Assembly: GCA_903813345.2 (NCBI GenBank)
Contig: CAIIXF020000008.1
Span: forward strand, 2,673,341-2,737,340
Reading direction: 5' to 3'
Length of the DNA stretch: 64,000 nt
Origin: Owenia fusiformis
Taxonomy: Eukaryota > Annelida > Polychaeta > Sabellida > Oweniidae
The position numbers and the translations under genes were made by a program. This document shows positions 488-26,686 of this stretch, piece by piece; the first letter of the stretch is position 1; each line of letters begins with the position of its first letter. The notes under the pieces were generated by a model. The model saw nothing but the letters and a program-made list of their open reading frames with translations. It did not search any database and was not told where the DNA came from.

Positions 488-1174
488 TTAAAATGCTGTA
501 TGTTTAACTCCATTTATAATCTTGGTTTTACCGAGACTTTGAGACTTTCCAGATTGTTGAGTGTTCATTCCACAGGAACAGTTTTCTTGAGAGTATTGGT
601 TCAGAATACAGAAAACCTTTGATGTTTCAAACTCACAGTAATCATTGTCTGTATTGTCCTCAAAATGTAGCTTCAAATCATCATCATCATACTGTGAAGA
701 AACAGTGTGAAGTTTATTTGGGTGAGATTCCTCTCTGATGATGTCATCATAGTTCGTGGTTGAAGCCCCGATAGGTGCGATGTATCCATTTTCACCTGGA
801 ACAATAAACTCATCTGCGAAGTCGAGGAGATCATTCAGTGTTCCATTGCTGACCTTGTTCTTTTTCGCAGGGTGTGCACATTTGCCATTGTTTGTGATGT
901 CATCATTGTCAGCATCTAAACTCTCCATTGATGATGAGATTCCACGTTGAACTATTTCCTCAATATTCTCACTTAGTTTCCTTATACCATCAGCTTGCAT
1001 TTTATTTTGAAGTCTGACTGCTGCATGTTTCATTACGTTAAACAGTTTCCCAATAGATGAACGGCGACTTTTAGCCCTTTTATTAACTTGTGGTGTTGGA
1101 TATTTTCCCTGGATTTGCATCCTCTTATCAGTTGTGTTTCCATCAAACATCTCCCAGGATACTTGTTTTGCCAT
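488..1174 (-). CDS. Array gene copy 1: unrecognised intronless protein, 228 aa, subtype A
   Basis: I do not recognise this family. The protein starts MAKQVSWEMF, has a basic segment with RRSSIGKLF near residue 37 (RRSS fits a PKA-type site), a helix-like stretch rich in K, R and Q, then acidic serine-rich and aspartate-rich parts, and ends GVKHTAF. There is no signal peptide or membrane segment, so a nuclear or cytosolic protein is the simplest inference. The reading frame extends upstream to a Met at 1303, but those 43 codons are not conserved as coding in the sister copies (ATG lost in copy 2, 1-base deletion in copy 4). I therefore start at 1174, where all five copies have an ATG. Copies differ by in-frame indels only, which argues for selection on the protein. 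Confidence 0.75.
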   Translation of the reverse strand: MAKQVSWEMFDGNTTDKRMQIQGKYPTPQVNKRAKSRRSSIGKLFNVMKHAAVRLQNKMQADGIRKLSENIEEIVQRGISSSMESLDADNDDITNNGKCAHPAKKNKVSNGTLNDLLDFADEFIVPGENGYIAPIGASTTNYDDIIREESHPNKLHTVSSQYDDDDLKLHFEDNTDNDYCEFETSKVFCILNQYSQENCSCGMNTQQSGKSQSLGKTKIINGVKHTAF

Positions 1175-1364
1175 GATATCTGTTGTTGTTAACTTGGAGA
1201 TACTGATGGTTGTTTTGTAAATAGACTGTTGACTGATGAGAGCTATCAGAAACTGATACTGATTTTGGACAGCACACAGCCTTTTATTTGAAACAGTTGA
1301 CATGTTTGTTTAGAAATGCCATTTGCACCTGATTCTCATTGTTTAAAACTTTGTCATGTTTAAG

Positions 1365-1402
1365 CTGCAAGGAAACAATTTTGACACCTGTTTGTTTGTT
1401 GT
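1365..1402 (-). promoter_or_regulatory. Promoter-proximal E-box/forkhead module, one copy
   Basis: About 190 bases 5' of the chosen start of copy 1 is one module with GACACCTG followed by TGTTTGTTTG. CACCTG is an E-box and TGTTTGTT is forkhead-like. The module is present in all five units but in different copy number. The regulatory role is inferred. Confidence 0.4.
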
Positions 1403-1678
1403 CATAATCTTCATGTTTAAAACTGGTTAAGTGATTTTAACTGATTTGACTATCAAAGGAATTTGTATATCTCACTGAACTTGTTTTAAGAATTCGAACA
1501 TTAACTGGTATTAAACTTTAATTTTTTTTAGAATTAAAAGTTGAATTGTAGAAACTATAATATATCAGGCATCAGACACTTTTAACTAAAGAACTAATAA
1601 GAGAATGGAAGTTACAAATTTCAAGGCTCAGTCAGTTAAATTCTTCTATATAATCTTAATATTAATAAACAATTTTAA

Positions 1679-2350
1679 CCTTCTGCATGCTAACTTAATT
1701 CAGCAAATATATCCCACGCGACTGACTTATTTTTCAAAGAGTGCAAAAAATGATATGCCTGGACTAAATAATTAATATCTCAATAACTACTGAATGAATC
1801 TGGATAAAATTTTCACAAAGAGAAGATACATTGGCCTGGCTCATGAAAAAAATGTTCTCATGAATTTTTTACATAAATAAACAGGACTGGGCATAAATAT
1901 ACCATGAATACTCCTCCGGAATCCGCCGCTTCACCCCTGTGGAGATTCAACGTCTGGTCAGAATCCAAAACTGAATTTGCAGCGATCGAATGTTCATTTT
2001 TCAGTTCAGAAAATATTCTAGTTTCTATTTTCGATGACCATTATCGGCTTCCAAGAGCCTAAAGAGCTCGAAATCGCAATCCATTTCCTCCACATGTTCG
2101 TTGTGATTGTATTTGGCCGCCATTTTGTACGATTTGTTCACTAAAAACGACTTAAACACTGTTTAAATCTGCTTTCTAGGTCAACAGGAAGTCCCCACGT
2201 AAGGACTAAATAAATCGGGCAATCTGATTGGATCATAAGACCGGCGGGAAAAAGTTAAGTTTTTGAAAGTTTAAATTCGACTGGAGTCGCGGGCAGTTGC
2301 CGGGGATTGTTAAGCACGGGCGACTACGCTTGCTGGTAGCATGCTAAAGG
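1679..2350. mobile_element. piggyBac-type non-autonomous element, 672 bp
   Basis: The sequence reads TTAA, then CCTTCTGCATGCTA, and at the far end TAGCATGCTAAAGG, then TTAA. The inverted ends are imperfect and the flanking TTAA (1675-1678 and 2351-2354) is the target duplication typical of piggyBac. Units 3, 4 and 5 carry the uninterrupted site around TTTTAACATTTC (unit 3 near 15268), so the insertion is specific to unit 1. The body has no coding capacity and is GC-richer than its surroundings. Confidence 0.75.
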
Positions 2351-2535
2351 TTAACATTTCAGAATATGTTTCACAGATACAATGTTTATAAACAATCTGT
2401 TTTTAATCACTGTGTCATTAAAAATTATTGAGTAATCCCAAGATAAAATGTTTGTTGGCACCTGTCTACCTGTTATTGTTTGTAAACAATGTCACCTGTG
2501 CAGTACCTTCAATAACAGGTGAAAAACATTTCAAA
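2351..2535 (-). promoter_or_regulatory. Distal conserved block of unit 1
   Basis: This block is conserved between units about 1.2 kb 5' of the gene (originally about 0.5 kb before the TTAA element inserted). It contains GTTTGTAAACAATG, whose core GTAAACA is a forkhead site, followed by GTCACCTG, an E-box. An 11-bp inverted pair ACCTGTTATTG / CAATAACAGGT brackets both. An enhancer role is inferred from conservation only. Confidence 0.4.
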
Positions 2536-2869
2536 CAAGATGACCTGCAAAAACTTTGGCTTCAGTTATTGTACAATTCAATATTATAAACTAAGTTATC
2601 CAAAAAAAGAATGATATATCAATAGTCTTTTCAATTTTATTACCTAGAAAACATCCAGGAATGATATTAATAAAATAAACTGAACAAGATTTGTAGGGAT
2701 ATAGAGAAGTCATCCATCAGTAATATCAAAAGAAGCACGAATAAGATCAGAATCAACAAGGAAATTTATAAGTTTTAATAATGAAGATGAAATGAACAGC
2801 ATTTAAAGAGATTTCTGTCTGTCTTTTCTTTTGTCTTGGTGACAACTAGAATACAAGTATTTAAGTAGA

Positions 2870-3940
2870 AAGATTTGATTCCAATTTTATGGCCTTGTGC
2901 CTTATGGGCATATAATCTCTACTTGAGGAGGAAATTTTAATATGGCTGCTGAATTCAAAATGGCCACCATTTTTTGTAGAACTGTAATACCAGTTGATGA
3001 ATTTGGTTCAGAATCAGATGTTATATATGCCCAGAGACATAGGAGTTCTGCCAAAGAAATAATTTTTAAACTAGCCACTGAATTTCAAAATGACCACCAT
3101 TTTCCATAAAAATGTGTAATTTTTGACAGCTTAGATATCATTTTTGGACAAAATTATGCAATTTAGTAAAAATTTTATAGGCTAGGACCTCTGCTCAAGG
3201 AAGCATTTACAATATGGCTGCTCGCTTACATCTAAACAACTGCATTTTTCATAAAGAAATGTTTTATAACTCAAATACCAGTTGACAGTTTGATACCAGT
3301 TTGGTTCATATTTTATATGCTGATGCTTTAAGGACATAAGGCTCTGCTTAAGAAGGAATTTTCTAGATGGCTGCTGAGTTAAAAATAGCTGCCATTTTCA
3401 TAAAAAATGTAATTTTAAATAATCTACACTGTAAGTACCATTTACAGGATTTAGTGCACATTTTGTAGTTAAAGGACCACCTCTCAAGAAGGAATTTGCA
3501 ATATGACCACATTGTTTTTTAAATGGCTACCATTTTTGTTAAAAAATATAATCTTTGATAACACAAACACCATAATTATAATTTGACAGATTTGGTTGAA
3601 ATTTTAGATGTTGACGCAATATGCACTAAAATCTGCTCAAGAAAGGAATTTTCAAATTTACACACAAATTCAAAATGGCCACCTTATTAAATAAAATTTA
3701 CCTTTTTTGATAACTCAAATTACATTTGCCAGATTTGGGTCAGATTAAATGTGCCTTTTAGTCTATATTGTGCCTATATCTTATTTGAATAGGATCAAGA
3801 AGAAAAGCTGTTCAATTCAAAATGGCTGCCATTTTTCAGGAAACTTATGATTTCTTCTGATAACACAAATACCTGTCCCCAGTTTTGATCCAAATTTTAT
3901 ATGTTAATGGTCATTAGACCTTTGCTTAAGAAAGAATTGA
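2870..3940. repeat. Degenerate ~145-bp tandem repeats (Helentron-type core)
   Basis: Successive degenerate units repeat the theme 'AACTCAAATACCAG ... GGTTCA.ATTTTATATGC ... CTGCTCAAGAA ... AAAATGGCCACCATTTT'. The same repeats form the core of the intact element at 21512. No terminal motifs remain here. The block is part of the tandem array unit, being found again at 12496-13080, 15600-16003 and 22920-23600. Confidence 0.7.
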
Positions 3941-4040
3941 ATACAATAAAACCTGTATGTTGAACTTTCTTTTCCAAGGAAAACATTCAGTCTTTGTAGG
4001 TGTTAACTACAGAGAGGGTAATTTATACAGAAGTCAATAG

Positions 4041-4528
4041 CACTGGTGATCCACTTGATTACGCTGGAACCGTTTCGGTAACAAAATGTGGGAATGTCCG
4101 AGGTACAATTTTTCTTTTTTCCTTATTTCACACGTTGTAGGCAGAATTCCCATTACATTTTTATCACAAACGTGTATCAGTATCATATGTTTAAGAAAAT
4201 GTACACATTTGCGAACAAATAGTTCAGAAGACAACGGAATCATAGATTCAGTTCCTCACGTAAGTTACATAAACGGTATTTTGAAAAACAGTTAAGATCT
4301 GCACTTTTAACCCCTACCGTTACATAACTTAAGTGAGGAATTCAAGCGACGATTCTGTTGTCTTCTGAGCTATTTTTTTCACAAACATGTACATGTCTAA
4401 AACATATGATACTGATACACGTTTGTGAGAAAAAATGTTGTGGGGATTCTACCTACGACGTGTGAAATAAGGAAAAAAGAAAAATCGTACCTTTTCGGTA
4501 ACCAGCGTAATCGAGCGGATCACCGGTG
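4041..4528. mobile_element. Foldback MITE, CAC-ended, full palindrome
   Basis: The ends are CACTGGTGATCC and GGATCACCGGTG, and the two halves are long inverted arms (about 4041-4250 against 4355-4528) around a loop. The flanks show the 5-bp duplication AATAG (4036-4040 and 4529-4533). CAC-initial ends with a 5-bp duplication resemble Transib-type elements, but no transposase is present and that assignment is an inference. Small open frames on both strands here are by-products of the palindrome. Confidence 0.7.
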
Positions 4529-4533
4529 AATAG

Positions 4534-4985
4534 AGTATATTTGGAGAAAGGTGTCAACTAGAGACAAATGTTCAGTAGATAAGGTTTTCACTAGAGAGAG
4601 GTGTTTATAAGACAGATTTTACTGTATATGACATCATCATGTCACATCATGGGTGTAGATTTTGCCAAATGGAGAGAATATATATATATATATTGAACAT
4701 TTCTTTACCAAGAAAAAACGTTCAGTGTTGGTAGGTGTTCACTTTAGAGAGGGTAATTTATATGTAGAAGTCAAGGGGGTCTACTAGAGACAGGTGTTCA
4801 CTATATAGACTTAGAAAGGGTAATTTACACAGAATTCAAAAGGGTATGTGTGGAGAAGTGTGTCTACTAGAGACAGCGTTCACTAGATAAGCTTTTCACA
4901 AGAGGGAGAGGTGTTTATAAGACAGGTTTTACCGTATATGACATCATGTCATATCATGGGTGTATATTTTGTTAAAAGGAGAGAA
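4534..4985. repeat. Tigger/pogo-end-derived repeat block
   Basis: Direct repeats of phrases such as GGTGTTCACTATAGA, GAGAGGGTAATTTA and AGACAGGTTTTACTGTA resemble the ends of the pogo/Tigger element at 42710-43937. Comparable blocks sit at the same place in the other units (13505-13990, 19130-19320, 23960-24430). There is no coding region. Confidence 0.5.
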
Positions 4986-5145
4986 AACACTTCATAAATG
5001 TACTTCTTAGACATTTGTAGAAACAAAACAAGTTGTTTTATATAAAATAGTATAAGATTTTATTTATATTTAATGACTATTTACAATTTATAGTGAAACA
5101 TGTATTTACAATTTGGCAATTCATTAGCAACTTTTAATCCAGTGT

Positions 5146-5847
5146 TTAAAATGCTGTATGTTTAACTCCATTCATAATCTTGGTTCTACCGAGACTTTGA
5201 GACTTTACTCTTCCAGATTGTTGAGTGTTCATTCCAAAGGAACAGTTTTCTTGAGAGTATTGATTCAGAATACAGAAAACCTTTGATGTTTCAAACTTGC
5301 AAAAATCGATGTCTGTATTGTTCTCAAAATGAAGCTTCAAATCATCATACTGCGAATAAACAGCATGAAGCTTATTTGGGTGAGATTCCGCTCTGATGAT
5401 GTCATCATATGCACAGTTCGTGTTTGAAGCCCTGATAGGTGCGATGTATCCATTTTCACCTGGTACAATAAACTCATCTGCGAAGTCGAGGAGATCATTC
5501 AGTGTTCCATTGCTGACCTTGTTCTTTTTCGCAGGTTGTGCACATTTACCATTGTTTGTGATGTCATCATTGTCAGCATCTAAACTCTCCATTGATGATG
5601 AGATTCCACGTTGAACTATATCCTCAATATTCTCACTTAGTTTCCTTATACCATCAGCTTGCATTTTATTTTGAAGTCTGACTGCTGCATGTTTCATTAC
5701 GTTAAACAGTTTCCCAATAGATGAACGGCGATTTTTAGCTCTTTTATTAACTCGTGGTGTCGGATATTTTTCCTTGATTTGCATCCTCTTGTCGATTGTG
5801 TTGTCATCAAACATCTTCCAAGAGACGAGTGATACTTGTGTTGCCAT
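5146..5847 (-). CDS. Array gene copy 2: unrecognised intronless protein, 233 aa, mosaic
   Basis: This is the second copy of the array family. It starts MATQVSLVSWKMF (subtype B, three codons longer than subtype A). The central part reads ENGYIAPI as in subtype A and then ASNTNCAYDD as in subtype B, so the gene looks like a recombinant of the two types. It has two extra residues (RV) in the C-terminal SGRVKSQ segment and lacks two of the four aspartates of the QYDDDD run; both changes are in frame. The upstream ATG used in the longest frame of other copies is ATA here, which supports the start at 5847. An AATAAA signal lies at 5058-5063 on the minus strand. Confidence 0.75.
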   Translation of the reverse strand: MATQVSLVSWKMFDDNTIDKRMQIKEKYPTPRVNKRAKNRRSSIGKLFNVMKHAAVRLQNKMQADGIRKLSENIEDIVQRGISSSMESLDADNDDITNNGKCAQPAKKNKVSNGTLNDLLDFADEFIVPGENGYIAPIRASNTNCAYDDIIRAESHPNKLHAVYSQYDDLKLHFENNTDIDFCKFETSKVFCILNQYSQENCSFGMNTQQSGRVKSQSLGRTKIMNGVKHTAF

Positions 5848-6038
5848 AGCTGCAGTAGTTGTCTTAGAGATATTGATAGTTGTTTTGTAAATAGACTGTT
5901 GACTGATGAGAGCTATCAGAAACTGATACTGATTTTGGACAGGACACAGCCTTTTATTTGAAACAGTTGATATGTTTGTTTAGAAATGCCATTTGCACCT
6001 GATTCTCATTGTTTAAAACTTTGTCATGTTTAAGCTGC

Positions 6039-6150
6039 AAGGAAACAATTTTGACACCTGGTTGTTTATTGCCATGGGAACAATTTTGACACCTGTTTGT
6101 TTATTGCCATGGAAACAATCTTGACACCTGTTTGTTTATTGCCATTGAAG
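6039..6150 (-). promoter_or_regulatory. Promoter-proximal module, three copies
   Basis: Three tandem copies of a ~36-bp module (GGAACAATTTTGACACCTG then TTTGTTTATTGCCATG) lie about 200 bases 5' of copy 2. Each has a CACCTG E-box and a TGTTTAT forkhead-like site. Units 1 and 3 have one module and units 4 and 5 have two. Confidence 0.45.
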
Positions 6151-7113: not shown

Positions 7114-7414
7114 TAGTGTAAAGTGTAAAGTCACACAATTTTTGCTCCAGACAAATTTACAAAAATCTCAAGAAGGACGCAAAGTCTGATCACATACTTT
7201 TGCAGAGACATTCATGAACATATGGAGAACGCATAGAGAAACTTTTAAAGAACAAACTTTAGTACCAAAAGAGTTTTTAGCACAAACTTTTCTGGATATT
7301 TTGAGAAAGTTCAGAACTAATAGTACAGGCTGATAAACACTTGGATTAATTGGCTTCAGTCAGTAGGCTAAGCTCATAAGGACAACCTTGCAGTAGACCA
7401 GTAATTGGCTTGAT

Positions 7415-8782
7415 ATGGCTACTAATATTGCTTCAGAGTCTGATTCTCCAACTGTAAGCCAACTATTGGGCTCACAATCACCAACACAATCAGAACATGG
7501 TGACATTTCAATGACCTCTGGCCTCACTACATCAGTCAATCTGATCCAAGAAACACAACTGGAATCTGAAGATGAGAGGGAGGGGGAAACTAGCAGTGTT
7601 GATGCTAGTGCCATACGAACTCTGAGACCACGTGCTATTATATCTAAGACCCCAAAAACCAAAGGGAGACCAAAGAAGTCACTTACAACAAAGAATGATG
7701 TAACAGCAGTCCTTAAAGCACTATCCACCATGCAGTCTAGTATAGATACAACAAATAAGCTGATGCAGGGCCTACAAACGACTAATGCGGACTTGGTCAG
7801 TCAGCTAGCTATGAAAACAGCACAATGTTGCGAACTAGACAAAGAATGCCGAGAGTTACGCTCACAGCTGTCAAAAACTCATAGCACTGAGTCTGGATTA
7901 CCAAAGACACTGGTTATCGGAAGCTCAATTATTCGAGACTTTGATACAAATAAACTGCATAACACAGAAGTTGAATGCATTCGAGGTGGAACAGTGGACG
8001 ATGTACATAAATCACTGACGGACAATAATGCTTCATATGACAGGGTCATTCTCCAAGTAGGTAGCAACGACTGCAGCAAAGATAACACCCCAGAAGATAT
8101 CGCTAAACAATACCAGCTGCTTATCAAAGGAGCCAAAAACATTGCTAATGAAGTAGTTGTGTCTAGTATATGCCCTCGCACAGATAAACCAGCAGCCCAA
8201 GAAAAGGTTGACACTGTCAATGCCACACTACAAGGCATCTGCTCTGATGAAGATGCAAGTGTCACTTTCATAAACAATGACCTCTCGTTTAAGCTCCAAG
8301 ACAATTCCATTAATGATGGGTTTTTACATGGTGATGGCCTCCACTTATCGAAACCAGGAACAAACCGATTGGCTATCAATATGAAGCTCAAAACGAAAGG
8401 CAAGGATATTACCAAACCGTACTATAACCGTAACAAGAATGCCTTCAACAAACAGAATCAACAGAACAAAGATAATAATAACAATAATGATGACCCCAAT
8501 CATGGAACCAATGACTGGACAACAGTGAACAAGAAACATAGAAATAACGCTCGCCAATCTCTCAATAATCAAACAGATGCGTCAACTCACGAACAATCTA
8601 AACCTCAACAAGGACACTCCTTAAGATGCATCAAATGTGGGGAGGCCAGCCACCTCACTAGCTCATGTTGGCACCCTGCCACCGTACGTTGCCGTGGGTG
8701 CAATCAGCTTGGACACAAAGTCTCAAGATGTCCTGCAAACAGGATGGTAGACCAAGGGCACCAAGATTTCAACCGTTTCTAG
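7415..8782 (+). CDS. LINE ORF1p with SGNH-hydrolase-like domain and two CCHC knuckles
   Basis: This 455-aa protein would bind the element RNA in the retrotransposition particle. Residues 95-155 look like a coiled coil. Residues 163-325 are an SGNH/GDSL esterase-like domain with block I VIGSS (169-171), block III VGSNDC (N218) and block V DGLH (D307, H310), so the catalytic residues are all present. An asparagine-rich linker (345-365) is followed by two CX2CX4HX4C zinc knuckles at 405-418 and 426-439. The TAG stop at 8780-8782 is in the same frame as ORF2. Esterase-containing ORF1 proteins are known from CR1/L2-type elements. Confidence 0.88.
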   Translation: MATNIASESDSPTVSQLLGSQSPTQSEHGDISMTSGLTTSVNLIQETQLESEDEREGETSSVDASAIRTLRPRAIISKTPKTKGRPKKSLTTKNDVTAVLKALSTMQSSIDTTNKLMQGLQTTNADLVSQLAMKTAQCCELDKECRELRSQLSKTHSTESGLPKTLVIGSSIIRDFDTNKLHNTEVECIRGGTVDDVHKSLTDNNASYDRVILQVGSNDCSKDNTPEDIAKQYQLLIKGAKNIANEVVVSSICPRTDKPAAQEKVDTVNATLQGICSDEDASVTFINNDLSFKLQDNSINDGFLHGDGLHLSKPGTNRLAINMKLKTKGKDITKPYYNRNKNAFNKQNQQNKDNNNNNDDPNHGTNDWTTVNKKHRNNARQSLNNQTDASTHEQSKPQQGHSLRCIKCGEASHLTSSCWHPATVRCRGCNQLGHKVSRCPANRMVDQGHQDFNRF

Positions 8783-11700
8783 ATTCTTGGTGAAGTTATC
8801 GCCCCATCCCCACAATGCAAAGATAATGTCCCTAGATCACACACAAAGCCTCGTAAATTACATAAACGTTCACGAAGGGGTGCACACAAACGCAAGAACA
8901 ATGCCAATTTTCCTTTAAGTATCGCATTCAACAATGTAGAATACTTAGGATTAGCAAAACAACACGAACTTGATAATCTTCTGTCAATGAAACAGTTTGA
9001 CATTGTAGGAGTGTGTGAAACATTTTTCAAAGACTCGAATACCCCTACTGTCAGTAATAAGGAATATGAATGGTTTGGTAAGAACAGAGTCAATAGATCT
9101 GGTGGTGGTGTTGGTTTTTTCATAAAAAGAGATAAAGTTACTATTTTAAAAGAAAACCACTTAGATTCACTTAATGATGAATTTGAAAGATATTGGTTAA
9201 AGGTAAAGATAGTCAATGCAATTCTTAATGTTGGAGTTGCATACTTTCCAAATGATGGGAAGAATCCTGCTCTTACAGAAGCCCTTACTGAGGAACTAAT
9301 CAAAGACATTTCTCAATTTGATAATAGCAACGAATGTACCCTCCTTATGGGTGACTTTAATGGACGCATAAAAGAATTCAATAGTGGTCAAAGCAGTCAC
9401 AATGGTAAATTCATAGAAGTCCTCAGTGAGGCAACCAATTGTACTATACTTAATTTAACTGAAGAATGTGAAGGTGAGGTAACATGGGCCCGCAACAACC
9501 AGTCATCCACACTTGATTATATTTTGGTCAATGACAGATTTATGAGTATTTATGATAAAATGGTTATTCATGAAAATCACGATGTGTCTATTGGCAGCAG
9601 CCACGCTTTTCTTGTTGTTGAAGGCTCTTGTTGCGGGTCAGATTCTAAATCCAAATCTAAAAATAAAATGTCAAATGAAGTAATTAAAACACCAAGTTGG
9701 AAAATCTCAGAAAATACAGACTGGACAAAGTTCCAGCAACTTATAACAAAACAATTTAATTCCTGGGATATTTCATTATACTCTAATATTGAGGAAGCAT
9801 GGGCAGTTTGGAAGGGTAAAGTCAAAGAGGCAGCCTATGAGTCCGTGGGAACTAAGGTAATCTCCCCCAACTATGTATCATTCTGGAATGAAGAAATCAA
9901 ACAATTAATCAAAAATAGAAGGGAAGCATGTCGTTTCTTTAGGTATTGGAAACGCGCCAAAACATGCGACCCCAATGTGCTGCAAGAAATGTGGGATTTA
10001 TATATTCAAAGAAAAGAGCAAGTTCGTGATAAGATTAAACAAGTACACATTCAAAACCATATTAAGACTATCACAAAGAATGCCTCAAAGAAATCTAATT
10101 CAAAATCTTTTTGGAAAACATTAAAAATGTTTAATGCAAAAGCAGGACACCCAATACAAATAAAAGACCCAGATGACCCAAAATGTATAATAACTGACCC
10201 TCGGAAAGTATCTCAGTCAATTGCTAAATACTGGAAAAATGTTGGTCCCAACAATGTAAATGATCGTTCAGTAAAAACAGACTTGTCTCAGCAACTTAGA
10301 GAGCTTCATATGTCATCTACATTTTCAGACAATGCTTTATTTGATGTTACATTTGATGAAGGTGAAGTTTCTGAATGTATCAAAGGGTTAAGTAATGGTA
10401 AAGCATGTGGAACAGATCAAATTCCAAATGAATTTCTGAAGCAAGGGGGGCCTATTATAATTAAATCAATATCTGAAATATTTTATCAAGTGAAGATCAG
10501 AGAACAAATGCCCAAAGAATGGAAAGAAGGTCTTTTATTTCCCATTCACAAGAATTCAGATAAGGAAATACTTGACAACTATAGAGGCATAACAATAAAC
10601 TCTAACATTTACAAGCTTTTCACCTCTATTATGGAATCTAAGATCTTGAAGTTTTTCGAAGTTAATAACGTTTTGGGTGACTTGCAAGGCGCCTTTAGAT
10701 CAGGTTTGAGATTAGAAAATCATATTTTTGCCCTCAAAGGTATCTGTAGCATGAGGAAAAACAACAACCTTAAGACCTATTTATCTTTTTTGGACATCTC
10801 TAAAGCCTTTGACGTGGTCAACAGGGACCTTTTATTTTTACGATTATGGGAAAAGGGGATTCAAGGCAAAGTCTGGCGCATTTTGAGGGAATTATATGTG
10901 GGAGTTAAAAGCAAAGTGATTTTTGGAACAATTTCAACAGAGTGGGAAGAGTGCAACCCTGTCTATAGCCTAAAACAGGGTTGCTGCCTCTCCCCGACTC
11001 TGTTTTCCCTTGTTATGAGTGACCTTGTTGAAATGTTCAACAATGAAGATATAGGGTTACCTTTTGAAAATGAAAAGGTCCCAGTTCTTATGTTCGCCGA
11101 TGATGTTGCTTTACTTGCCGAAAATGAATCTACAATGAACAGAATGTTAAAAATTGCTGACATCTTTTCTATTAAATGGGGGTTCAATTTTAGCCCTAAA
11201 AAATCAAAGGTTATGGTCATTGGGAAAAGAATTGACAAAAATAAAAAATGGATCTTAGGCAGCCATGAATTATTTGAGGTTAAAAGTTATAAGTATCTAG
11301 GGATATATTTTGATCGGTCTCTAAAAGACTCTGGCCACATTGACTTCCTTGCTGAAAAATCTAAACGAATTCAAGGTATGATAGTCTCCACTTTGACAAA
11401 ACACTGTAATGTCATGCGTCTCAAATTTGGGGAGAAAATGTACAACTCAATGTTTGTCCCTGCCATTCTTCATGGCTGTCCTATATTCACGTTAAACAAA
11501 ACTAACACGGATAAAATGAAATCAATGCAATATAATATTGGGAGATCAATTCTCCAAATTAGGTGTTGCCCAGCCAGAGAAGCACTTTTAGGTGATTTAG
11601 GCTGGAGACCTCTTGTTGATGTCATTGAAAAAAGGCAAATAGATTACTTTATATATCTAAAATGTAATATCAAAGAAGGGTCATTACACAAAAAGATATT

Positions 11701-12334
11701 TAATTCTATGTATGATGGCTTCTGTGCTAATGATGAAAGCAAAGCATTCCCTTACTTTTCAAACATAAAATCCATCCTAACAAAATATGGACTGGATGAT
11801 GTTATCTACAGAGATGATATTGACTGGTATCAGGCTCTTATCAAAATATCAGATCAAGAAAGGCTTAATAATTTTAAATCTGCATTGAATGAAAAGTCTT
11901 CACTCTCACTGTATCGATGTCTAAACCCCCATCCCTTCTTAAAAAACTACCTGACCACAGATTTTGACTTCTATGGGCAAAAATTAAAGTTCAAAGCTAG
12001 ATCAGGGTGTTTTGGCTTAAAAACAGAATACGAAAAATGGGGACAGGGAAATGGAATATGTACGTTATGTGATAAAAATGTAAAAGACACCATCCAACAT
12101 AGACTTTTTGTTTGCCCTTTCTTTGGTAATGATAGAAATACTTTTTATAAAAATGTTATTGAAAAATGTAATCCAGCACTATCGTCGGGTCTTCTATCAG
12201 CCAGTGTGCAAATTAAAACATGTTGGGCCTTAGGTGAGGACATTTTTACATTGTGGGGACAAGAAGAAGCTTTTAAGTTCGATAAATGTGTAAAGGGTCT
12301 TTTAAAATGTGTATATAAACCTCAGACCCAATAA
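8783..12334 (+). CDS. LINE ORF2p: endonuclease, reverse transcriptase, C-terminal zinc knuckle
   Basis: The open frame begins directly after the ORF1 TAG; the first Met is at 8987 (1115 aa from there). The APE-type endonuclease has CETFF, MGDFNGR and LDYILV; its last motif reads SSH where SDH is usual. The first strand of the endonuclease fold (SIAFNNVEYLG) appears to lie upstream of the first Met, so translation probably starts before 8987 or by readthrough. The RT has FLDISKAFD (about residue 602 from the Met), LKQGCCLSPTLFS and FADDVALLAE (about 702). The C-terminus has a CX2CX9HX4C knuckle near residue 1025. No frameshift or stop was found. Confidence 0.9.
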   Translation: MLGEVIAPSPQCKDNVPRSHTKPRKLHKRSRRGAHKRKNNANFPLSIAFNNVEYLGLAKQHELDNLLSMKQFDIVGVCETFFKDSNTPTVSNKEYEWFGKNRVNRSGGGVGFFIKRDKVTILKENHLDSLNDEFERYWLKVKIVNAILNVGVAYFPNDGKNPALTEALTEELIKDISQFDNSNECTLLMGDFNGRIKEFNSGQSSHNGKFIEVLSEATNCTILNLTEECEGEVTWARNNQSSTLDYILVNDRFMSIYDKMVIHENHDVSIGSSHAFLVVEGSCCGSDSKSKSKNKMSNEVIKTPSWKISENTDWTKFQQLITKQFNSWDISLYSNIEEAWAVWKGKVKEAAYESVGTKVISPNYVSFWNEEIKQLIKNRREACRFFRYWKRAKTCDPNVLQEMWDLYIQRKEQVRDKIKQVHIQNHIKTITKNASKKSNSKSFWKTLKMFNAKAGHPIQIKDPDDPKCIITDPRKVSQSIAKYWKNVGPNNVNDRSVKTDLSQQLRELHMSSTFSDNALFDVTFDEGEVSECIKGLSNGKACGTDQIPNEFLKQGGPIIIKSISEIFYQVKIREQMPKEWKEGLLFPIHKNSDKEILDNYRGITINSNIYKLFTSIMESKILKFFEVNNVLGDLQGAFRSGLRLENHIFALKGICSMRKNNNLKTYLSFLDISKAFDVVNRDLLFLRLWEKGIQGKVWRILRELYVGVKSKVIFGTISTEWEECNPVYSLKQGCCLSPTLFSLVMSDLVEMFNNEDIGLPFENEKVPVLMFADDVALLAENESTMNRMLKIADIFSIKWGFNFSPKKSKVMVIGKRIDKNKKWILGSHELFEVKSYKYLGIYFDRSLKDSGHIDFLAEKSKRIQGMIVSTLTKHCNVMRLKFGEKMYNSMFVPAILHGCPIFTLNKTNTDKMKSMQYNIGRSILQIRCCPAREALLGDLGWRPLVDVIEKRQIDYFIYLKCNIKEGSLHKKIFNSMYDGFCANDESKAFPYFSNIKSILTKYGLDDVIYRDDIDWYQALIKISDQERLNNFKSALNEKSSLSLYRCLNPHPFLKNYLTTDFDFYGQKLKFKARSGCFGLKTEYEKWGQGNGICTLCDKNVKDTIQHRLFVCPFFGNDRNTFYKNVIEKCNPALSSGLLSASVQIKTCWALGEDIFTLWGQEEAFKFDKCVKGLLKCVYKPQTQ

Positions 12335-12447
12335 CATGTTTTAGTTTCTTATATATAATGCCTGTAAACTGATATATGCTTTTAAATGTTTTGCCAATGT
12401 CTGGAAGAACCATTTGTGTTCCGCTGTAATAAAAGCGTTTCCAATAA

Positions 12448-12495
<48 letters not shown>

Positions 12496-13995: not shown

Positions 13996-14126
13996 ATTTG
14001 TAGAAACAAAACAAGTTGTTTTATATAAAATAGTATAAGATTTTATTTATATTTAATGATTATTTACAATTTACAATGTAACATTTATTTACAATTTGGC
14101 AATTCATTAGCAGTTTTATCCAGTGT

Positions 14127-14813
14127 TTAAAATGCTGTATGTTTAACTCCATTCATAATCTTGGTTTTACCGAGACTTTGAGACTTTCCAGATTGTTGAG
14201 TGTTCATTCCACAGGAACAGTTTTCTTGAGTGTATTGGTTCAGAATACAGAAAACCTTTGATGTTTCAAACTCGCAAAAATCGATGTCTGTATTGTTCTC
14301 AAAATGAAGCTTCAAATCATCATCATCATACTGCAAATAAACAGCATGAAGCTTATTAGGGTGCGATTCCTCTCTGATGATGTCATCATAGTTCGTGGTT
14401 GGAGCCCCGATAGGTGCGATGTATCCATTTTCACCTGGTGCAATAAACTCATCTGCGAAATCGAGGAGATCATTCAGTGTTCCATTGCTGACCTTGTTCT
14501 TTTTCGCAGGGTGTGCACATTTGCCATTGTTTGTGATGTCATCATTGTCAGCATCTAAACTCTCCATTGATGATGAGATTCCACGTTGAACTATTTCCTC
14601 AATATTCTCACTTAGTTTCCTTATACCATCAGCTTGCATTTTATTTTGAAGTCTGACTGCTGCATGTTTCACTACGTTAAACAGTTTCCCAATAGATGAA
14701 CGGCGATTTTTAGCTCTTTTATTAACTTGTGGTGTTGGATATTTTTCCTGGATTTGCATCCTCTTGTCAGTTGTGTTGTCATCAAACATCTCCCAGGATA
14801 CTTGTTTTGCCAT
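14127..14813 (-). CDS. Array gene copy 3: unrecognised intronless protein, 228 aa, subtype A
   Basis: This is the third family member, closest to copy 1: it begins MAKQVSWEMF, has ENGYIAPI without the extra CA, and ends KHTAF. Substitutions include FNVVKH for FNVMKH and FIAPG for FIVPG. The frame is open further upstream to 14978, but that extension is not conserved in all copies, so the start at 14813 is preferred. The basic RRSSIGKLF segment and the acidic QYDDDDLKLHFE segment are kept. The AATAAA signal is conserved downstream (about 14041-14047 on the minus strand). Confidence 0.75.
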   Translation of the reverse strand: MAKQVSWEMFDDNTTDKRMQIQEKYPTPQVNKRAKNRRSSIGKLFNVVKHAAVRLQNKMQADGIRKLSENIEEIVQRGISSSMESLDADNDDITNNGKCAHPAKKNKVSNGTLNDLLDFADEFIAPGENGYIAPIGAPTTNYDDIIREESHPNKLHAVYLQYDDDDLKLHFENNTDIDFCEFETSKVFCILNQYTQENCSCGMNTQQSGKSQSLGKTKIMNGVKHTAF

Positions 14814-15000
14814 GATATCTGTTGTCGTTGCCTTGGAGATATTGATAGTTGTTTTGTAAATAGACTGTTGACTGATGAGAGGTATCAGAAACTGATACTG
14901 ATTTTGGACAGGACACAGCCTTTTATTTGAAACAGTTGACATGTTTGTTAAGATATGCCATTTGCACCTGATTCTCATTGTTTAAAACTTTGTCTTGTTA

Positions 15001-19735: not shown

Positions 19736-19925
19736 TCATGGGTGTATATTTTGCGAAAAGGAGAGAATACGCTTCATAGATGTACTTCTTAGACATTTGT
19801 AGAAACAAAACAAGTTGTTTTATATAAAATAGAATAAGATTTTATTTATATTTAATGATTATTTACAATTTACAGTGTAACATTTATTTACAATTTGGCA
19901 ATTCATTAGCAGTTTTATCCAGTGT

Positions 19926-20618
19926 TTAAAATGCTGTATGTTTAACTCCATTCATAATCTTGGTTTTACCGAGACTTTGAGACTTTCCAGATTGTTGAGT
20001 GTTCATTCCACAGGAACAGTTTTCTTGAGTGTATTGGTTCAGAATACAGAAAACCTTTGATGTTTCAAACTCGCAAAAATCAATGTCTGCATTGTTCTCA
20101 AAATGAAGCTTCAAATCATCATCATCATACTGCGAAGAAACAGCATGAAGGTTATTTGGGTGAGATTCCTCTCTGATGATGTCATCATATGCACAATTCG
20201 TGTTTGAAGCCTCGATGTATCCAGTTTCACCTGATGCAACAAACTCATCTGCTAAGTCGAGGAGATCATTCGGTGTTCCATTGCTGACCTTGTTCTTTTT
20301 CGCAGGGTGTGCACATTTGCCATTGTTCGTGATGTCATCATTGTCAGCATCTAAACTCTCCATTGATGATGAGATTCCACGTTGAACTATTTCCTCAATA
20401 TTCTCACTTAGTTTCCTTATACCATCAGCTTGCATTTTATTTTGAAGTCTGACTGCTGCATGTTTCATTACGTTAAACAGTTTCCCAATAGATGAACGGC
20501 GATTTTTAGCTCTTTTATTAACTCGTGGTGTTGGATATTTTTCCTTGATTTGCATCCTTGTGTCGATTGTGTTGTCATCAAACATCTTCCAAGAGACGAG
20601 TGATACTTGTGTTGCCAT
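19926..20618 (-). CDS. Array gene copy 4: unrecognised intronless protein, 230 aa, subtype B
   Basis: This is the fourth copy. It starts MATQVSLVSWKMF and has the subtype B centre (FVASGETGYIEASNTNCAYDD), which is three codons shorter than subtype A at YIAPI and two longer at NCAYDD. A one-base deletion 5' of the ATG (near 20660) shifts the upstream frame relative to the other copies, which is the best evidence that the region before 20618 is untranslated. The protein ends KHTAF like the others. Confidence 0.75.
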   Translation of the reverse strand: MATQVSLVSWKMFDDNTIDTRMQIKEKYPTPRVNKRAKNRRSSIGKLFNVMKHAAVRLQNKMQADGIRKLSENIEEIVQRGISSSMESLDADNDDITNNGKCAHPAKKNKVSNGTPNDLLDLADEFVASGETGYIEASNTNCAYDDIIREESHPNNLHAVSSQYDDDDLKLHFENNADIDFCEFETSKVFCILNQYTQENCSCGMNTQQSGKSQSLGKTKIMNGVKHTAF

Positions 20619-20802
20619 AGCTGTAGTAGTTGTCTTACAGATATTGATAGTTGTTTTATAAATGATTGTTGACTGATGAGAGCTATCAGAAACTGATACT
20701 GATTTTGGACAGGACACAGCCTTTTATTTGAAAAAAGTTGACATGTTTGTTTAGAAATGTCATTTGCACCTGATTCTCATTGTTTAAAACTATGTCATGT
20801 TT

Positions 20803-20885
20803 AAGCTGCATGGGAACAATCTTGACATCTGTTTGTTTAAGCTGCATGGGAACAATCTTGACACCTGTTTGTTTATTGCCATTGA
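20803..20885 (-). promoter_or_regulatory. Promoter-proximal module, two copies
   Basis: Two tandem modules; the first has CATCTG and the second CACCTG as E-box, each followed by TGTTTGTTTA. The linker reads AAGCTGCATGGGAACAATC instead of TTGCCATGG, so this duplication arose separately from that in unit 2. Confidence 0.4.
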
Positions 20886-21179: not shown

Positions 21180-21370
21180 ATATTTCATTTTAACATGTGT
21201 CTCGCAGACATATTGTTTATAAACAATATGTTTTTAAATACTGTGCCATTAAAGATTATTGAGTAATCCCAAGAGGAACTGTTTGTTGCCACCTGTCTGC
21301 CTGTTATTGTTTGTAAACAATGTCACCTGTACAGTACCTTCAATGACAGGTGGAAAACATTTCAACCATC
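21180..21370 (-). promoter_or_regulatory. Distal conserved block of unit 4
   Basis: It keeps GTTTGTAAACAATGTCACCTG and the imperfect pair CCTGTTATTG / CAATGACAGG. Confidence 0.4.
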
Positions 21371-21511
21371 ATCACCTGAAAAAAAACAATTGCATTTTTG
21401 TGTGGAACTTTCTAGTTTATAGTGATGGTGTCTAATAAAGCCATTTAAGTATTTTACAATTTTTGTGCAGATCAAACCAAAGAAATTCCACTTGTACAGT
21501 ACTTAATAATT

Positions 21512-22667
21512 ATCCCACCGAACGAAGTTCGAGGGGGATATAGAAAAGCCGTCCGTCCATCCGTTCGTCCGTCCGTTCGTGTGTCCGGGCAATAACTCAA
21601 ATACCGGTTGACAGATTTCATTCAAATTTTATAGGCTTATGCCTTATGGGTGTAGGACCTCTGCTCGAGAAGCAAATTTCAATATGGCCGCTTAATTCAA
21701 AATGGCGGCCATTTTTCGGAAAAAATATAATCTTAATAACTCAAATACTAGTAGATGGATTTGGTTCAAATTTTATATGCTGTTGCCTTGGTACAAAGGA
21801 GCCTTGCTCAAGAAGACATTTTCAAGATGGCCACCAAATTTCAAAATGGCGGCCATTTTTTGTAAAAAAACGTTATCTTTGATAACTCAAAGACCATTGA
21901 ATGGATTTGGTTCAAATTTTAGATGCTGATGCCTAGGGACATAGGAGCTCTGCTCGAGAAAGGATTTTCAAAATGGCACCAAATTTCAAAATGGCGGCCA
22001 TTTTTTGTAAAAAAACGTTATCTTTGATAACCCAAATACCATTGAATGGATTTGGTTTAAATTTTAGATGCTGATGCCTAGGGACATAGGAGCTCTGCTC
22101 AAGAAGGGATTTTCAAGGTGGTAGCTAAATTTCAAAATGGCCGCCATTTTTCATAAAAGAACGTAACCTTTGATAACTCAAATACCAGTTGACGGATTTG
22201 GTTCAAATTCTATATGCTGATGCCTAGAGACAAAGAAGTTCTGCTCAAAAATAAATTTTCAAGATGGCCACTGAATTTCAAAATGGCCGCCATTTTCGTA
22301 AAAAAACGTAATTAATGATAACTCAAATACTAGTGGATGGATTTGGTTCCAATTTTGTATGCTGATGTTTAGGGAAAAAGGAGATCTGCTTCAGAAGAAA
22401 TTTCAAAGGTGATAGCTGAATTTCAAAATGGCTGCCATTTTTCATTAAAATAGTAATCTTTGATAACCCAGATACCATTGGACGGACATTCTCTGCTAAA
22501 GAAGAAATCTAAAGATGATAGCTGAATTTCAAAATGGCAACCATGTTTCATAAAGACATAATCTTTGATAATTCAAATACCAGTGGATGAATTTGGCTCA
22601 ATTTTTTTTATCAAAACATGTTTTGTTCGGTGGGATTTGCTACTCCGTGGAGTTGCTGTTTTTCTAG
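21512..22667 (+). mobile_element. Helentron-associated (HINE/pearl-like) element, complete, ~1.16 kb
   Basis: The 5' end is ATCCCACCGAAC and its perfect 12-bp inverse GTTCGGTGGGAT lies at 22625-22636, near the 3' end. After it come the palindromic hairpin ACTCCGTGGAGT (22642-22653) and TTTTTCTAG. Between lie about seven tandem ~145-bp units with AAAATGGCGGCCATTTTT. Subterminal inverted repeats, internal tandem repeats, 3' hairpin and insertion into a T run fit non-autonomous Helentrons. Units 2 and 5 have the empty site AATAATTTTCTCAG. The last base is ambiguous because TTTTCTAG is duplicated (22667 or 22675). Confidence 0.8.
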
Positions 22668-22919
22668 TTTTCTAGTTTTCTCAGTTTTAGTACAATTCAA
22701 TATTATTGATTAAATAAGTTATCAAAAAATATAGTTTTAATAATCTTTTCAATTTTATAACATGTTTGAATGAAAGTGTCTAGTAATGACTTAAATAATG
22801 ACAAAAACATTCAAACCTTTGAAACACACATAGTTTGAACAATGGATACAGAACTATATATGGAAATGTGAGTTTTTTAATCTTTTTCAGATTGATCTAT
22901 TTAAGACTTATTTAATAAG

Positions 22920-23620
22920 TCATTAACTCAAATACCAGTTGGCAGATCTGGTTCAGATGTTATATCCTTATGCCAAGAGACATAGGAGTTCTTCCAAAGA
23001 AATAATTTTCAAGCTAGCCACTGAATTTCAAAATGACCACCATTTTCCATAAAAATGTGTAATTTTTGACAACTTAGATACCATTTTTGGACAAAATTAT
23101 GCAATTTTATAGGCTAGGACCTCTGCTCAAGGAAGCATTTACAATATGGCTGCTCGCTTACATCTAAACTGCATTTTTCATAAAGAAATGTTTTATAACT
23201 CAAATACTAGTTGACTGATTTGGTTCATATTTTATATGCTAATGCTTTCGGGACATAGGGCTCTGCTCAAGAAGGAATTTTCTAGATGGCCGCTCAGAGT
23301 TCAAAATAGGAATTTCCAAAATTACTCGCAAATTCAAAATGGCCACCTTATTAAATAGAATATACCTTTTTCAATAACTCAAATTACATGCGCCAGATTT
23401 GGTTCATATTAAATGTGCCTATTAGTCTATATTGTGCCAATATCTTATTGGAATAGGATCAAGAAGAAATGCTGTTCAATTCAAAATGGCTGCCATTGAT
23501 CAGGAAACTTATGATTTCTTCTGATAACACAAATACCAGTCCCCAGTTTTGATCCAAATTTTATACGTTAATGGTCATTAGACCTTTGCTTAAGAAAGAA
23601 TTTAATACAATAAAACCTGT
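22920..23620. repeat. Degenerate ~145-bp repeats of unit 4
   Basis: Counterpart of 12496-13100; it reads through the LINE insertion site (CAAGCTAGCCACTG at 23011). Confidence 0.65.
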
Positions 23621-23706
23621 GTATTTAACTTTCTTTTCCAAGGAAAATATTCAGTCTTTGTAGGTGTTAACTGCACAGAGAGGGTAATTTATACAGAAGT
23701 CAATAG

Positions 23707-23955
23707 CACTGGTGATCCACTCGATTACGCTGGAACCGTTTCGGTAACAAAATGTGGGAACGTCGGAGGTACAATTTTTCTTTTTTCCTTAATTCACACG
23801 TTGTAGGCAGAATTCCCACGACATTTTTAACACAAACGTGTATCAGTATCATATGTTTAAGAAAATGTACACATTTGCGAACAAATAGTTCAGAAGACAA
23901 CGGAAAAAAAATCGTACCTTTTTCGTAACCAGCGTGATCGAGCGGATCACCATTG
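23707..23955. mobile_element. Foldback MITE, truncated copy
   Basis: Third copy of the CAC-ended MITE. The left flank keeps AATAG and the right flank reads AATAC. One arm is almost entirely deleted, so it can no longer form the long hairpin. Confidence 0.65.
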
Positions 23956-23959
23956 AATA

Positions 23960-24430
23960 CAGTATATTTTCGAGAAAGGTGTCTACTAGAGACAAATGTT
24001 CACTAGATAAGGTTTTCACTAGAGAGAGGTGTTTATAAGACAGATTTTACTGTATATGACATCATGTCACATCATGAGTAGATTTTGCCAAATGGAGAGA
24101 ATATAGAGATCATGTCATATAGATATATTGAACATTTTTTTTACCAAGAAAAAACGTTCAGTGTTGGTAGGTGTTCACTTTAGAGAGGGTAATTTATATG
24201 TAGAAGTCAATAGGGTATGTGTGGAAGAAGGGGGTCTATTAGAGACAGGTGTTCACAATAGAGACTTAGAGAGGGTAATTACAGAATTCAAAAGGGTATG
24301 TGTGGAGGAAGTGTGTCTACTAGAGACAGCATTCACTAGATAAGCTTTTCACAAGAGGGAGAGGTGTTTATAAGACAGGTTTTACTGTATATGACATCAC
24401 GTCATATCATGGGTGTATATTTTGCCAAAA
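23960..24430. repeat. Tigger/pogo-end-derived repeat block
   Basis: Same block as 4534-4985 and 13505-13995. Confidence 0.5.
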
Positions 24431-24596
24431 GGAGAGAATACACTTCATAAATGTACTTCTTAGACATTTGTAGAAACAAAACAAGTTGTTTTATATAAAA
24501 TAGTATAAGATTTTATTTATATTTAATGATTATTTACAATTTACAGTGTAACATTTATTTACAATTTGGCAATTCATTAGCAGTTTTATCCAGTGT

Positions 24597-25289
24597 TTAA
24601 AATGCTGTATGTTTAACTCCATTCATAATCTTGGTTTTACCGAGACTTTGAGACTTTCCAGATTGTTGAGTGTTCATTCCATAGGAACAGTTTTCTTGAG
24701 TGTATTGGTTCAGAATACAGAAAACCTTTGATGTTTCAAACTCGCAAAAATCGATGTCTGTATTGTTCTCAAAATGAAGCTTCAAATCATCATCATCATA
24801 GTGCGAATAAACAGCATGAAGCTTATTAGGGTGAGATTCCTCTCTGATGATGTCATCATATGCACAGTTCGTGTATGAAGCCTCGATGTATCCAGTTTCA
24901 CCTGATACAACAAACTCATCTGCGAAGTCGAGGAGATCATTCGGTGTTCCATTGCTGACCTTGTTCTTTTTTGCAGGGTGTGCACATTTGCCATTGTTTG
25001 TGATGTCATCATTGTCAGCATCTAAACTCTCCATTGATGATGAGATTCCACGTTGAACTATTTCTTCAATATTCTCACTTAGTTTCCTTATACCATCAGC
25101 TTGCATTTTATTTTGAAGTCTGACTGCTGCATGTTTCATTACGTTAAACAGTTTCCCAATAGATGAACGGCGATTTTTAGCTCTTTTATTAACTCGTGGT
25201 GTTGGATATTTTTCCTTGATTTGCATCCTTGTGTCGATTGTGTTGTCATCAAACTTCTTCCAAGAGACGAGTGATACTTGTGTTGCCAT
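24597..25289 (-). CDS. Array gene copy 5: unrecognised intronless protein, 230 aa, subtype B
   Basis: This is the last copy of the array and the one next to KNTC1. It starts MATQVSLVSWKKF and has the subtype B centre (FVVSGETGYIEASYTNCAYDD). The open frame continues upstream to 25451 but is not conserved there. Differences from copy 4 are few and all keep the frame. The basic RRSSIGKLFNVMKH segment is identical to copy 4. The AATAAA signal is conserved downstream near 24512-24517 on the minus strand. Confidence 0.75.
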   Translation of the reverse strand: MATQVSLVSWKKFDDNTIDTRMQIKEKYPTPRVNKRAKNRRSSIGKLFNVMKHAAVRLQNKMQADGIRKLSENIEEIVQRGISSSMESLDADNDDITNNGKCAHPAKKNKVSNGTPNDLLDFADEFVVSGETGYIEASYTNCAYDDIIREESHPNKLHAVYSHYDDDDLKLHFENNTDIDFCEFETSKVFCILNQYTQENCSYGMNTQQSGKSQSLGKTKIMNGVKHTAF

Positions 25290-25476
25290 AGCTGTAGTAG
25301 TTGTCTTAGAGATATTGATAGTTGTTTTGTAAATAGACTGTTGACTCATGAGAGCTATCAGAAACTGATACTGATTTTGGACAGGACACAGCCTTTTATT
25401 TGAAACAGTTGACATGTTTGTTAAGATATGCCATTTGCACCTGATCCTCATTGTTTAAAACTTTGTCATGTTTAAG

Positions 25477-25555
25477 CTGCAAGGAAACAATTTTGACACC
25501 TGTTTGTTTATTGCCATGGGAACAATCTTGACACCTGTTTGTTTATTGCCATTGA
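25477..25555 (-). promoter_or_regulatory. Promoter-proximal module, two copies
   Basis: Two modules with CACCTG and TGTTTGTTTATTG, separated by CCATGGGAACAATC as in unit 2. Confidence 0.45.
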
Positions 25556-25859
25556 AGTTAATGACATAATTTCCATGTTTAAAACTGGTTAACCGATTTT
25601 TATTGATCTGGCAATGATAGAATTTTGTATAACTCAATACTGAACTTGTTTTAAGAAATTAAGAAATGTGTTGGAATTCTTACATTTACTGTTATTACAG
25701 TATTATGCTTTTAATTTTTTGCTTTTAAAAGTTGAATTATAGAAATTATATATCAGGCATTAGACACTTTTAATTAAATAACTAATTAAAGGATTGAAGT
25801 TATAAATTTCAAGGCTCAGTCAGTTCAATACTTCCATCTAATCTTATATAAATAAACAA

Positions 25860-26050
25860 TTTTAACATTTCATTTTGACATATGTCTCTCAGACACATTT
25901 TTATAAACAATATGTTTTTAATTACTGTGCCATTAAAGATTATTGAGTAATCCCAAGAGGAACTGTTTGTTGCCACCTGTCTGCCTGTTATTGTTTGTAA
26001 ACAATGTCACCTGTACAGTACCTTCAATGACAGGTGGAAAACATTTCAAA
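25860..26050 (-). promoter_or_regulatory. Distal conserved block of unit 5
   Basis: It keeps GTTTGTAAACAATGTCACCTG and CCTGTTATTG / CAATGACAGG. Confidence 0.4.
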
Positions 26051-26686
26051 CATCATGACCTGAAAAAACATTGGTATTTTTGTGTGAAACTCTAGTTTAC
26101 AGTGATTGGTGTCATAAAGCTGTTTAAGTATTTTTCAATTTTTGTGCAGATCAAACTTAAGTACAGTACATGTACTTAATAATTTTCTCAGTTATGGTTC
26201 AATTCAGTATTATTAATCAAAAAAGTTATAGAAAAATATAATGTAAATAATCTTTTCAATTTTGTAACATGTTTGTATGAAAGTGCCCAGTAATGACTTA
26301 AATAATGACAAAAACAGCCTTCAAACCTTTGAAATACACATAGTTTGAACAATTGATACATTACTATATATGGAAATGTGAGTTTTTTAATTGTTGTAAG
26401 ATTGATCTATTTAAGAAATAGAGGTTCTTGTATGAGTAACTGTGCAAGATCGTCCATTCTTGATGAGCTTTGATAATTCTTCTTTATCGAGTCGCAGACT
26501 GTTGCTATGTTGTTAATGTTTTTAGACCAGTGATGTCACAAGTAAATCTCATCTTGCATGTTAATGAAAGATGGCAATATCTTGCATGGGATAAAGATGG
26601 CCGTATCTTGGTTAGTCGTATGAGAAATGACTCTTCATTTCAGATGTAATACATATGTGAGATCTGGATGTGCCTATTAGCTTAAC
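26051..26686. other. End of the array and 5' region of KNTC1
   Basis: Homology to the array unit continues to about 26420 and then stops. The remaining ~260 bases up to the KNTC1 ATG are single-copy in the window and probably hold its promoter and 5' UTR. I see no TATA box and cannot place the transcription start. Confidence 0.45.

Follow-up and report, generated by a model that had tools for sequence, protein, structure and literature searches.

A tandem array of five intronless genes in Owenia fusiformis with paired, predicted Nanos-Pumilio elements in each 3' untranslated region

Within a 64,000-nucleotide stretch of Owenia fusiformis DNA (hereafter the window; GenBank assembly GCA_903813345.2, contig CAIIXF020000008.1, positions 2,673,341 to 2,737,340 of the forward strand) lie five highly similar, minus-strand genes that compose a tandem array and encode a protein of an unrecognized family. 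New in this analysis is the finding that the 3' untranslated region (3'UTR) of every copy contains two predicted elements of the hunchback type, AAAUUGUAAAUA. The best explanation for these observations, to which a probability of roughly 0.5 is assigned, is that the locus is a recently expanded array of five functional intronless genes producing an intracellular, probably regulatory protein that would be under the control of PUF and Nanos proteins, the PUF link being drawn from sequence motifs. All coordinates given below are positions within the window.

Five intact genes at a single locus

The original prediction described five open, minus-strand genes of 228-233 codons, and both a list of open reading frames (ORFs) and a tblastn search of the O. 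fusiformis genome confirm that description. Specifically, the five intact coding sequences (CDS) are located on the minus strand at 488..1174 (copy 1, 228 codons, for which the genome match spans residues 6-233 of the query), 5146..5847 (copy 2, 233 codons), 14127..14813 (copy 3, 228 codons), 19926..20618 (copy 4, 230 codons), and 24597..25289 (copy 5, 230 codons), and the encoded proteins are 90-93% identical to that of copy 2. The genes were also held to be intronless, a claim that stands for the CDS, although an intron within the 5'UTR could still be present. For all five copies the start was placed at a homologous ATGGCA. In copies 1, 3, and 5 the listed ORF is longer, yet it opens with an ATG that precedes the TATA-like and initiator sequences described below. 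The frame upstream of the chosen ATG lacks stops for 35-56 codons across the five copies; a 1-nt deletion in the leader of copy 4 nevertheless argues against a coding function for this region. Copy 5 alone has an additional in-frame ATG, 60 nt before the chosen one (window 25290-25349), a possible alternative start that would add 20 residues.

Searches of the O. fusiformis genome (498,259,871 bases in 525 contigs) place the family at this locus: tblastn with the copy 2 protein at E up to 1 found no sixth copy, and a 68-residue core used at E up to 10 returned the same five matches and nothing else, though weak relatives may escape searches of this kind. Similarly, the 773 bases upstream of copy 2 have genome matches only inside the array (8 matches), and the 10 kb to the left of the window contain no further copy, a 32-residue tblastn match found there (E 3.1-5.8) being judged a product of chance.

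With respect to the organization of the array, a repeating unit of approximately 4.66 kb had been proposed. The flanks do recur together with the genes, up to approximately position 26416, but the start-to-start spacings of 4658, 8981, 5799, and 4671 reveal that the unit is not uniform in length. Moreover, the near-equal lengths of the first and last units are in part a coincidence, since only 3200 of 4658 bp and 3020 of 4671 bp, respectively, align at 75% identity or above.

Selection on the reading frame

Analyses of insertions, deletions, and substitutions point to purifying selection on the reading frame, as is characteristic of a functional tandem family. Firstly, the five length differences among the CDS, corresponding to the residues LVS, API, CA, DD, and RV, measure 9, 9, 6, 6, and 6 nt in a codon alignment; a nucleotide alignment puts the first gap elsewhere and yields 6, 6, 6, 6, and 9 nt, such that all five are multiples of three either way. 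By comparison, only 2 of 34 length differences in the flanks are multiples of three (P 3.6e-5), although the distal flank of copy 1 in part looks poorly homologous in that alignment. The earlier argument that in-frame length differences are unlikely for decaying copies is supported. Secondly, the suggested comparison of nonsynonymous and synonymous divergence between copies places their ratio (omega) below 1. Codon-based maximum likelihood with one ratio gives an omega of 0.47 (best of 15 topologies; twice the log-likelihood difference, 2dlnL, from omega 1 is 7.86), a parsimony count of 27 synonymous and 44 nonsynonymous changes gives an omega of approximately 0.55 (one-sided P 0.011), and pairwise NG86 estimates for the 10 pairs range from 0.25 to 0.56.

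Across the middle of the CDS the copies are almost the same (0-3 differences per 100 columns), and this part may be subject to constraint at the nucleotide level. By the cruder of two counts of changes, synonymous changes per codon do not differ significantly between the core and the remainder of the CDS (P 0.44), and no RNA structure beyond that of shuffled sequences was detected in the conserved core (z 1.31).

These data bear directly on the alternative that the copies are decaying or derived from a transposon, and lack function. The spacers between genes do contain repeats and a long interspersed nuclear element (LINE), which would favor such an origin, but the in-frame nature of the CDS length differences, the omega values, and the conservation of the promoter each speak against it. 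Furthermore, a match to a transposon-encoded protein had been named as grounds for refuting a gene family, and neither a mobile-element protein match (Pfam scan) nor many dispersed copies (tblastn of the genome) were found, all five copies residing at one locus. Non-functional copies are therefore largely refuted as an explanation, and the five copies look functional as judged from the pattern of their changes.

The distribution of substitutions additionally hints at the history of the array. Of the 10 informative two-state sites between codons 3 and 32, 8 set copies 1 and 3 apart from copies 2, 4, and 5; of the 7 between codons 116 and 136, 6 set copies 4 and 5 apart from copies 1, 2, and 3; and other splits are backed by 5 of the 22 listed sites. 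Because the two main splits cluster along the gene (8:2 versus 0:6, P 0.007), and because five sites conflict with them, a history of gene conversion or unequal exchange among the copies is suggested, though not proven.

Paired elements in the 3'UTRs

As had been noted from the sequence, an AATAAA is kept after each stop codon, and motifs upstream of the genes are likewise kept, in all five copies. Between the stop and the AATAAA, which lies approximately 80 nt downstream of it, each 3'UTR contains two copies of AAATTGTAAATA, spaced 25 bases apart start to start. A motif search located these predicted Nanos-Pumilio sites, all on the minus strand, at 420..456 (copy 1), 5078..5114 (copy 2), 14061..14097 (copy 3), 19860..19896 (copy 4), and 24531..24567 (copy 5). 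The AATAAA signals of copies 1 to 5 are at 401-406, 5059-5064, 14042-14047, 19841-19846, and 24512-24517, respectively.

The crystallized RNA of the Drosophila hunchback Nanos response element 2 (NRE2) consists of AAAUUGUACAUA plus a 3' flank, and the core consensus of Pumilio is UGUAHAUA, according to the structural study (PMC4995099). That core occurs twice in each of the five 3'UTRs and is directly preceded in 10 of 10 cases by AAAU, the same A/U-rich bases that stand at the Nanos-binding position of NRE2. The predicted elements of the array match NRE2 at 11 of 12 bases and resemble it in combining AAAU with UGUAnAUA and in occurring twice per 3'UTR; they differ from it in the variable fifth base of the core, which is A in the array and C in hunchback. 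A further difference is that the array mRNAs encode a protein unrelated to that of hunchback. Potential partners are present, as the O. fusiformis genome contains a Nanos zinc-finger match and six PUF-repeat matches, the latter on C1.

Within the window, AAATTGTAHATA is matched 10 times, each time at one of the paired 3'UTR sites, where 0.28 matches would be expected from shuffled sequences. Among 680 pieces of 110 nt drawn from both strands of the array-free region (26501-63900), 22 contain at least one UGUAnAUA and none contains two; and among Markov sequences modeled on the 3'UTR of copy 2, 0.6% contain two or more.

Core promoter and upstream repeats

A core promoter composed of a TATA-like AATAAAAGG and an initiator TCAGTATCAG, with a spacing of 26 nt, is predicted for each of the five copies. 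The motif search placed it, on the minus strand throughout, at 1253..1288 (copy 1), 5923..5958 (copy 2), 14892..14927 (copy 3), 20693..20728 (copy 4), and 25365..25400 (copy 5), from which a leader of 82-86 nt is predicted. This stretch is well conserved: 36 of its 37 columns are invariant, and the mean pairwise difference among copies is 0.011 versus 0.178 for distal upstream sequence.

Upstream of the core promoter, the copies vary in the number of CAGGTG words, with two to four present within 330 nt. Some of these words sit in a unit of 35-36 bp, of which copies 1 and 3 have one and copies 2, 4, and 5 have more than one. In copy 2 the unit forms a 35-bp tandem repeat of 3.1 copies (6041..6149, minus strand) that contains a CAGGTG E-box and TAAACAA, and among the five copies of the gene the unit number ranges from one to three. 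Copies 2, 4, and 5 additionally have TAAACAAAC or TAAACAAC within the unit, and copies 1 and 3 have CAAACAAAC. When up to 2 mismatches are allowed, the 22-bp core of the unit occurs 9 times in the genome, with 8 of these occurrences inside the array. The upstream motifs may be read as candidate Forkhead, Sox, and E-box sites.

The predicted protein

That the family is an unrecognized one holds against both Pfam and PDB: a profile search of the five proteins yielded nothing above the cut-off in the former and nothing below E 0.29 in the latter. Weak Pfam matches to ARMH3_C and DUF4223 (E 0.16 and 0.26), each seen in one of the five members, were taken as chance, and a match of the long copy 5 ORF to MMS21_N (E 0.03) falls below the cut-off and is absent from the other copies. 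Searches of viral and prokaryotic collections, with two short peptide patterns each, gave 44 and 50 pattern matches, none of which was confirmed.

Hydropathy analysis revealed neither a signal peptide nor a membrane span, the best 19-residue values being 0.35-0.47. The N-terminal third is strongly basic, with a net charge of +9 to +10 in the best 30-residue segments, which fall between residues 17 and 61, and the basic region containing KRAKNRR, which resembles a nuclear localization signal; beyond residue 80, copy 2 has 15 basic and 20 acidic residues, a mildly acidic composition, and the C-terminal part is the more variable among copies. Taken together, these features are most likely those of a small intracellular regulatory protein. 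A basic stretch of such charge, together with KRAKNRR, would also be compatible with a chromatin or other nuclear structural protein of sperm or oocytes, and a role in the germline would suit Nanos-Pumilio elements. Such a protein is nonetheless unlikely, given that the remainder of the sequence is mildly acidic and that the overall composition is unlike that of a protamine or histone.

Weighing the proposed interpretation

Several observations weigh against the interpretation of the array as functional genes under PUF/Nanos control. At the level of the CDS, an omega near 0.5 reflects only moderate constraint, and values for individual segments (0.35, 0.33, and 0.55, with 2dlnL of 3.37, 2.2, and 3.13) are not significant singly. 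The cruder count, at 18 synonymous and 53 other changes, is near neutral, a result that arises because, wherever a codon alters its amino acid, this count scores every change in that codon as nonsynonymous. The lack of stop codons lends weak support to function, as approximately 2.6 would be expected at the computed rate of 0.037 (3.55 at an assumed rate of 0.05). With regard to exchange between copies, the two main splits are compatible with one tree. The possible helix of the protein is no more certain: residues 60-84 have an amphipathic moment of 0.62, barely above the 95% level of shuffles (0.59), and the helix drawn at residues 41-87 by AlphaFold2, which was given five near-identical sequences, is uncertain because the mean confidence score (pLDDT) is 34.6. 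At the level of the 3'UTR, the paired element occurs 21 times in the genome versus 48 times for a backwards control pattern; being no commoner than its control, the pair alone does not prove control by PUF proteins. Moreover, the ten sites amount to roughly two independent events, the five 3'UTRs being related copies; conservation extends over the 3'UTR as a whole (99 of 117 columns) rather than being confined to the elements; and inspection by eye of ORFs at three of the other pair sites (L006-L008), one of which (L006) was read through in its entirety, revealed no family-like protein that could represent a divergent relative. The 21 places comprise the five of the array, nine within one tandem repeat on C10, and seven others.

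An alternative consistent with several of these points is that the array is truly coding but that its 3'UTR elements are incidental features of an A+T-rich tail, the genes having multiplied for dosage only (as might a stress or larval gene) and PUF control being absent. The frequency of the pair relative to its control, the conservation of the entire 3'UTR, and the base composition of the window (33.7% GC) are each in keeping with such a scenario. What it does not readily accommodate is that two perfect 12-mers are present in all five copies and nowhere else in the 64 kb, and that they agree so closely with a site defined structurally. Incidental elements are accordingly regarded as possible, though not as the probable explanation. 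Control by PUF proteins continues to be preferred, and the main support for a function of the pair would be its conservation in the five 3'UTRs.

Comparison with Bearded and other known systems

The Bearded family of Drosophila is among the closest parallels. Its members, found in the Brd-C and E(spl)-C complexes and including m4, m-alpha, and Tom, are likened to the array genes in being small and clustered, in encoding an N-terminal run of basic residues together with a possible helix, and in carrying 3'UTR motifs (PMC1310631; PMC2760746). Bearded proteins bear the C-terminal motifs VPVHFARTxxGTFFWT and DRW(A/V)QA (PMC2760746). In the array, VPVHF (the start of the first motif) and DRW[AV]QA are absent from all five proteins, and Brd, GY, and K boxes are absent from the 130 nt after the stop in all five copies. 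Pfam includes a Bearded/E(spl)m4 model, and no match to it was obtained, ARMH3_C and DUF4223 being the only matches at E up to 10 in the five members. The Neuralized-type motif, N-x-A-N-E-K/R-L, is likewise lacking from all five proteins, with the looser NxxN occurring once, in copy 1. As for the N-terminal basic amphipathic helix of Bearded proteins, the basic stretch (17-61) and the amphipathic stretch (60-84) of the array proteins are adjacent rather than coincident; a comparable helix may be present, the structural model being of low confidence.

Membership in the Bearded family is not claimed because the profile, both C-terminal motifs, and all three 3'UTR boxes fail. Genes of a Bearded-like family, encoding basic-helix proteins that inhibit Neuralized in Notch signaling, would indeed be expected to display intronless clustering, a basic region beside a possible helix, conserved upstream E-boxes, and a short 3'UTR with conserved motifs; in light of the missing profile match, boxes, and protein motifs, such an identity is very improbable. 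Separately, interpretations of the helix as bZIP or BH3-like, weighed by eye only, were dropped.

Lineage-restricted, tandemly duplicated single-exon genes occur in invertebrate genomes, and the array resembles such families in its recent local duplication, its signs of exchange, and the lack of a known domain. It differs from them in being a small set, five genes at a single locus, in which both the core promoter and the 3'UTR are well conserved. The family was not the subject of any paper among the top listings of literature searches covering intronless, tandem, orphan, Bearded-like, and Nanos-controlled mollusc or oyster families, which is not proof of absence.

Spacers and neighboring genes

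The spacers contain features that lie outside the gene family. The copy 2-3 spacer holds a LINE insertion (7114..12494, plus strand) with a poly-A tail and two open frames, ORF1 (455 aa, with a GDSL/OSK-type match) and ORF2 (a 1115-aa endonuclease-reverse transcriptase); the paralogous copy 4-5 spacer is uninterrupted at the corresponding point, 23015/23016. That spacer contains a tandem array of a 145-bp repeat (21592..22486, plus strand; 6.1 copies). Genome-wide, 4146 first-look candidates for this repeat were found, and the 40 that were scored were all long matches of 89-100% identity, its own included; the repeat family is dispersed through the genome in arrays up to 97% similar, and within the window it recurs at approximately 55.0-55.4 kb and 59.5-59.7 kb. 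The repeat may represent an internal repeat of a mobile element.

To the right of the array, matches to the first ARM domain of KNTC1 (Rod) are present on the plus strand at 30668-30985 and 30942-31304, and other scanned frames give further KNTC1-type and weak WD40-type matches to which positions were not assigned. A single-exon, rhodopsin-type G protein-coupled receptor gene at 45720-46820 is galanin-receptor-like, its closest PDB relatives being galanin receptors. In addition, a large inverted repeat occupies 46918-47776, where 860 bases match their own reverse complement at approximately 94% identity.

Implications

A mechanism consistent with the observations can be proposed. Each copy would be transcribed from its conserved core promoter into an mRNA with a short leader, and the mRNAs would be held down by PUF proteins, together with Nanos where Nanos is present. 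Such repression would restrict the protein to a particular cell type or time, for example the germline, early embryo, or neurons, where it would most likely act inside the cell through contacts with partner proteins, nucleic acid, or membrane. Having several copies of the gene would probably raise dosage and allow the promoters to diverge in E-box number. A bolder version, which must be considered doubtful, is that the proteins are new, lineage-restricted intracellular regulators whose five mRNAs would be direct Nanos-Pumilio targets, via the doubled hunchback-type elements, in the germline or in early embryonic patterning, the array then being an independently evolved counterpart of intronless developmental gene clusters such as Bearded.

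As an orphan family the array would otherwise be of ordinary interest, and it is ordinary in kind; it is made more interesting by the doubled hunchback-type elements kept in every copy. To our knowledge, Nanos targets of this kind are hardly known in such an invertebrate. Should control by PUF and Nanos proteins prove true, the family would supply a concrete and testable target of Nanos and Pumilio beyond the classical models, and its five near-identical genes, which differ naturally in their numbers of E-boxes, would constitute a compact system with which to follow the divergence of promoters after duplication as the coding region stays alike.

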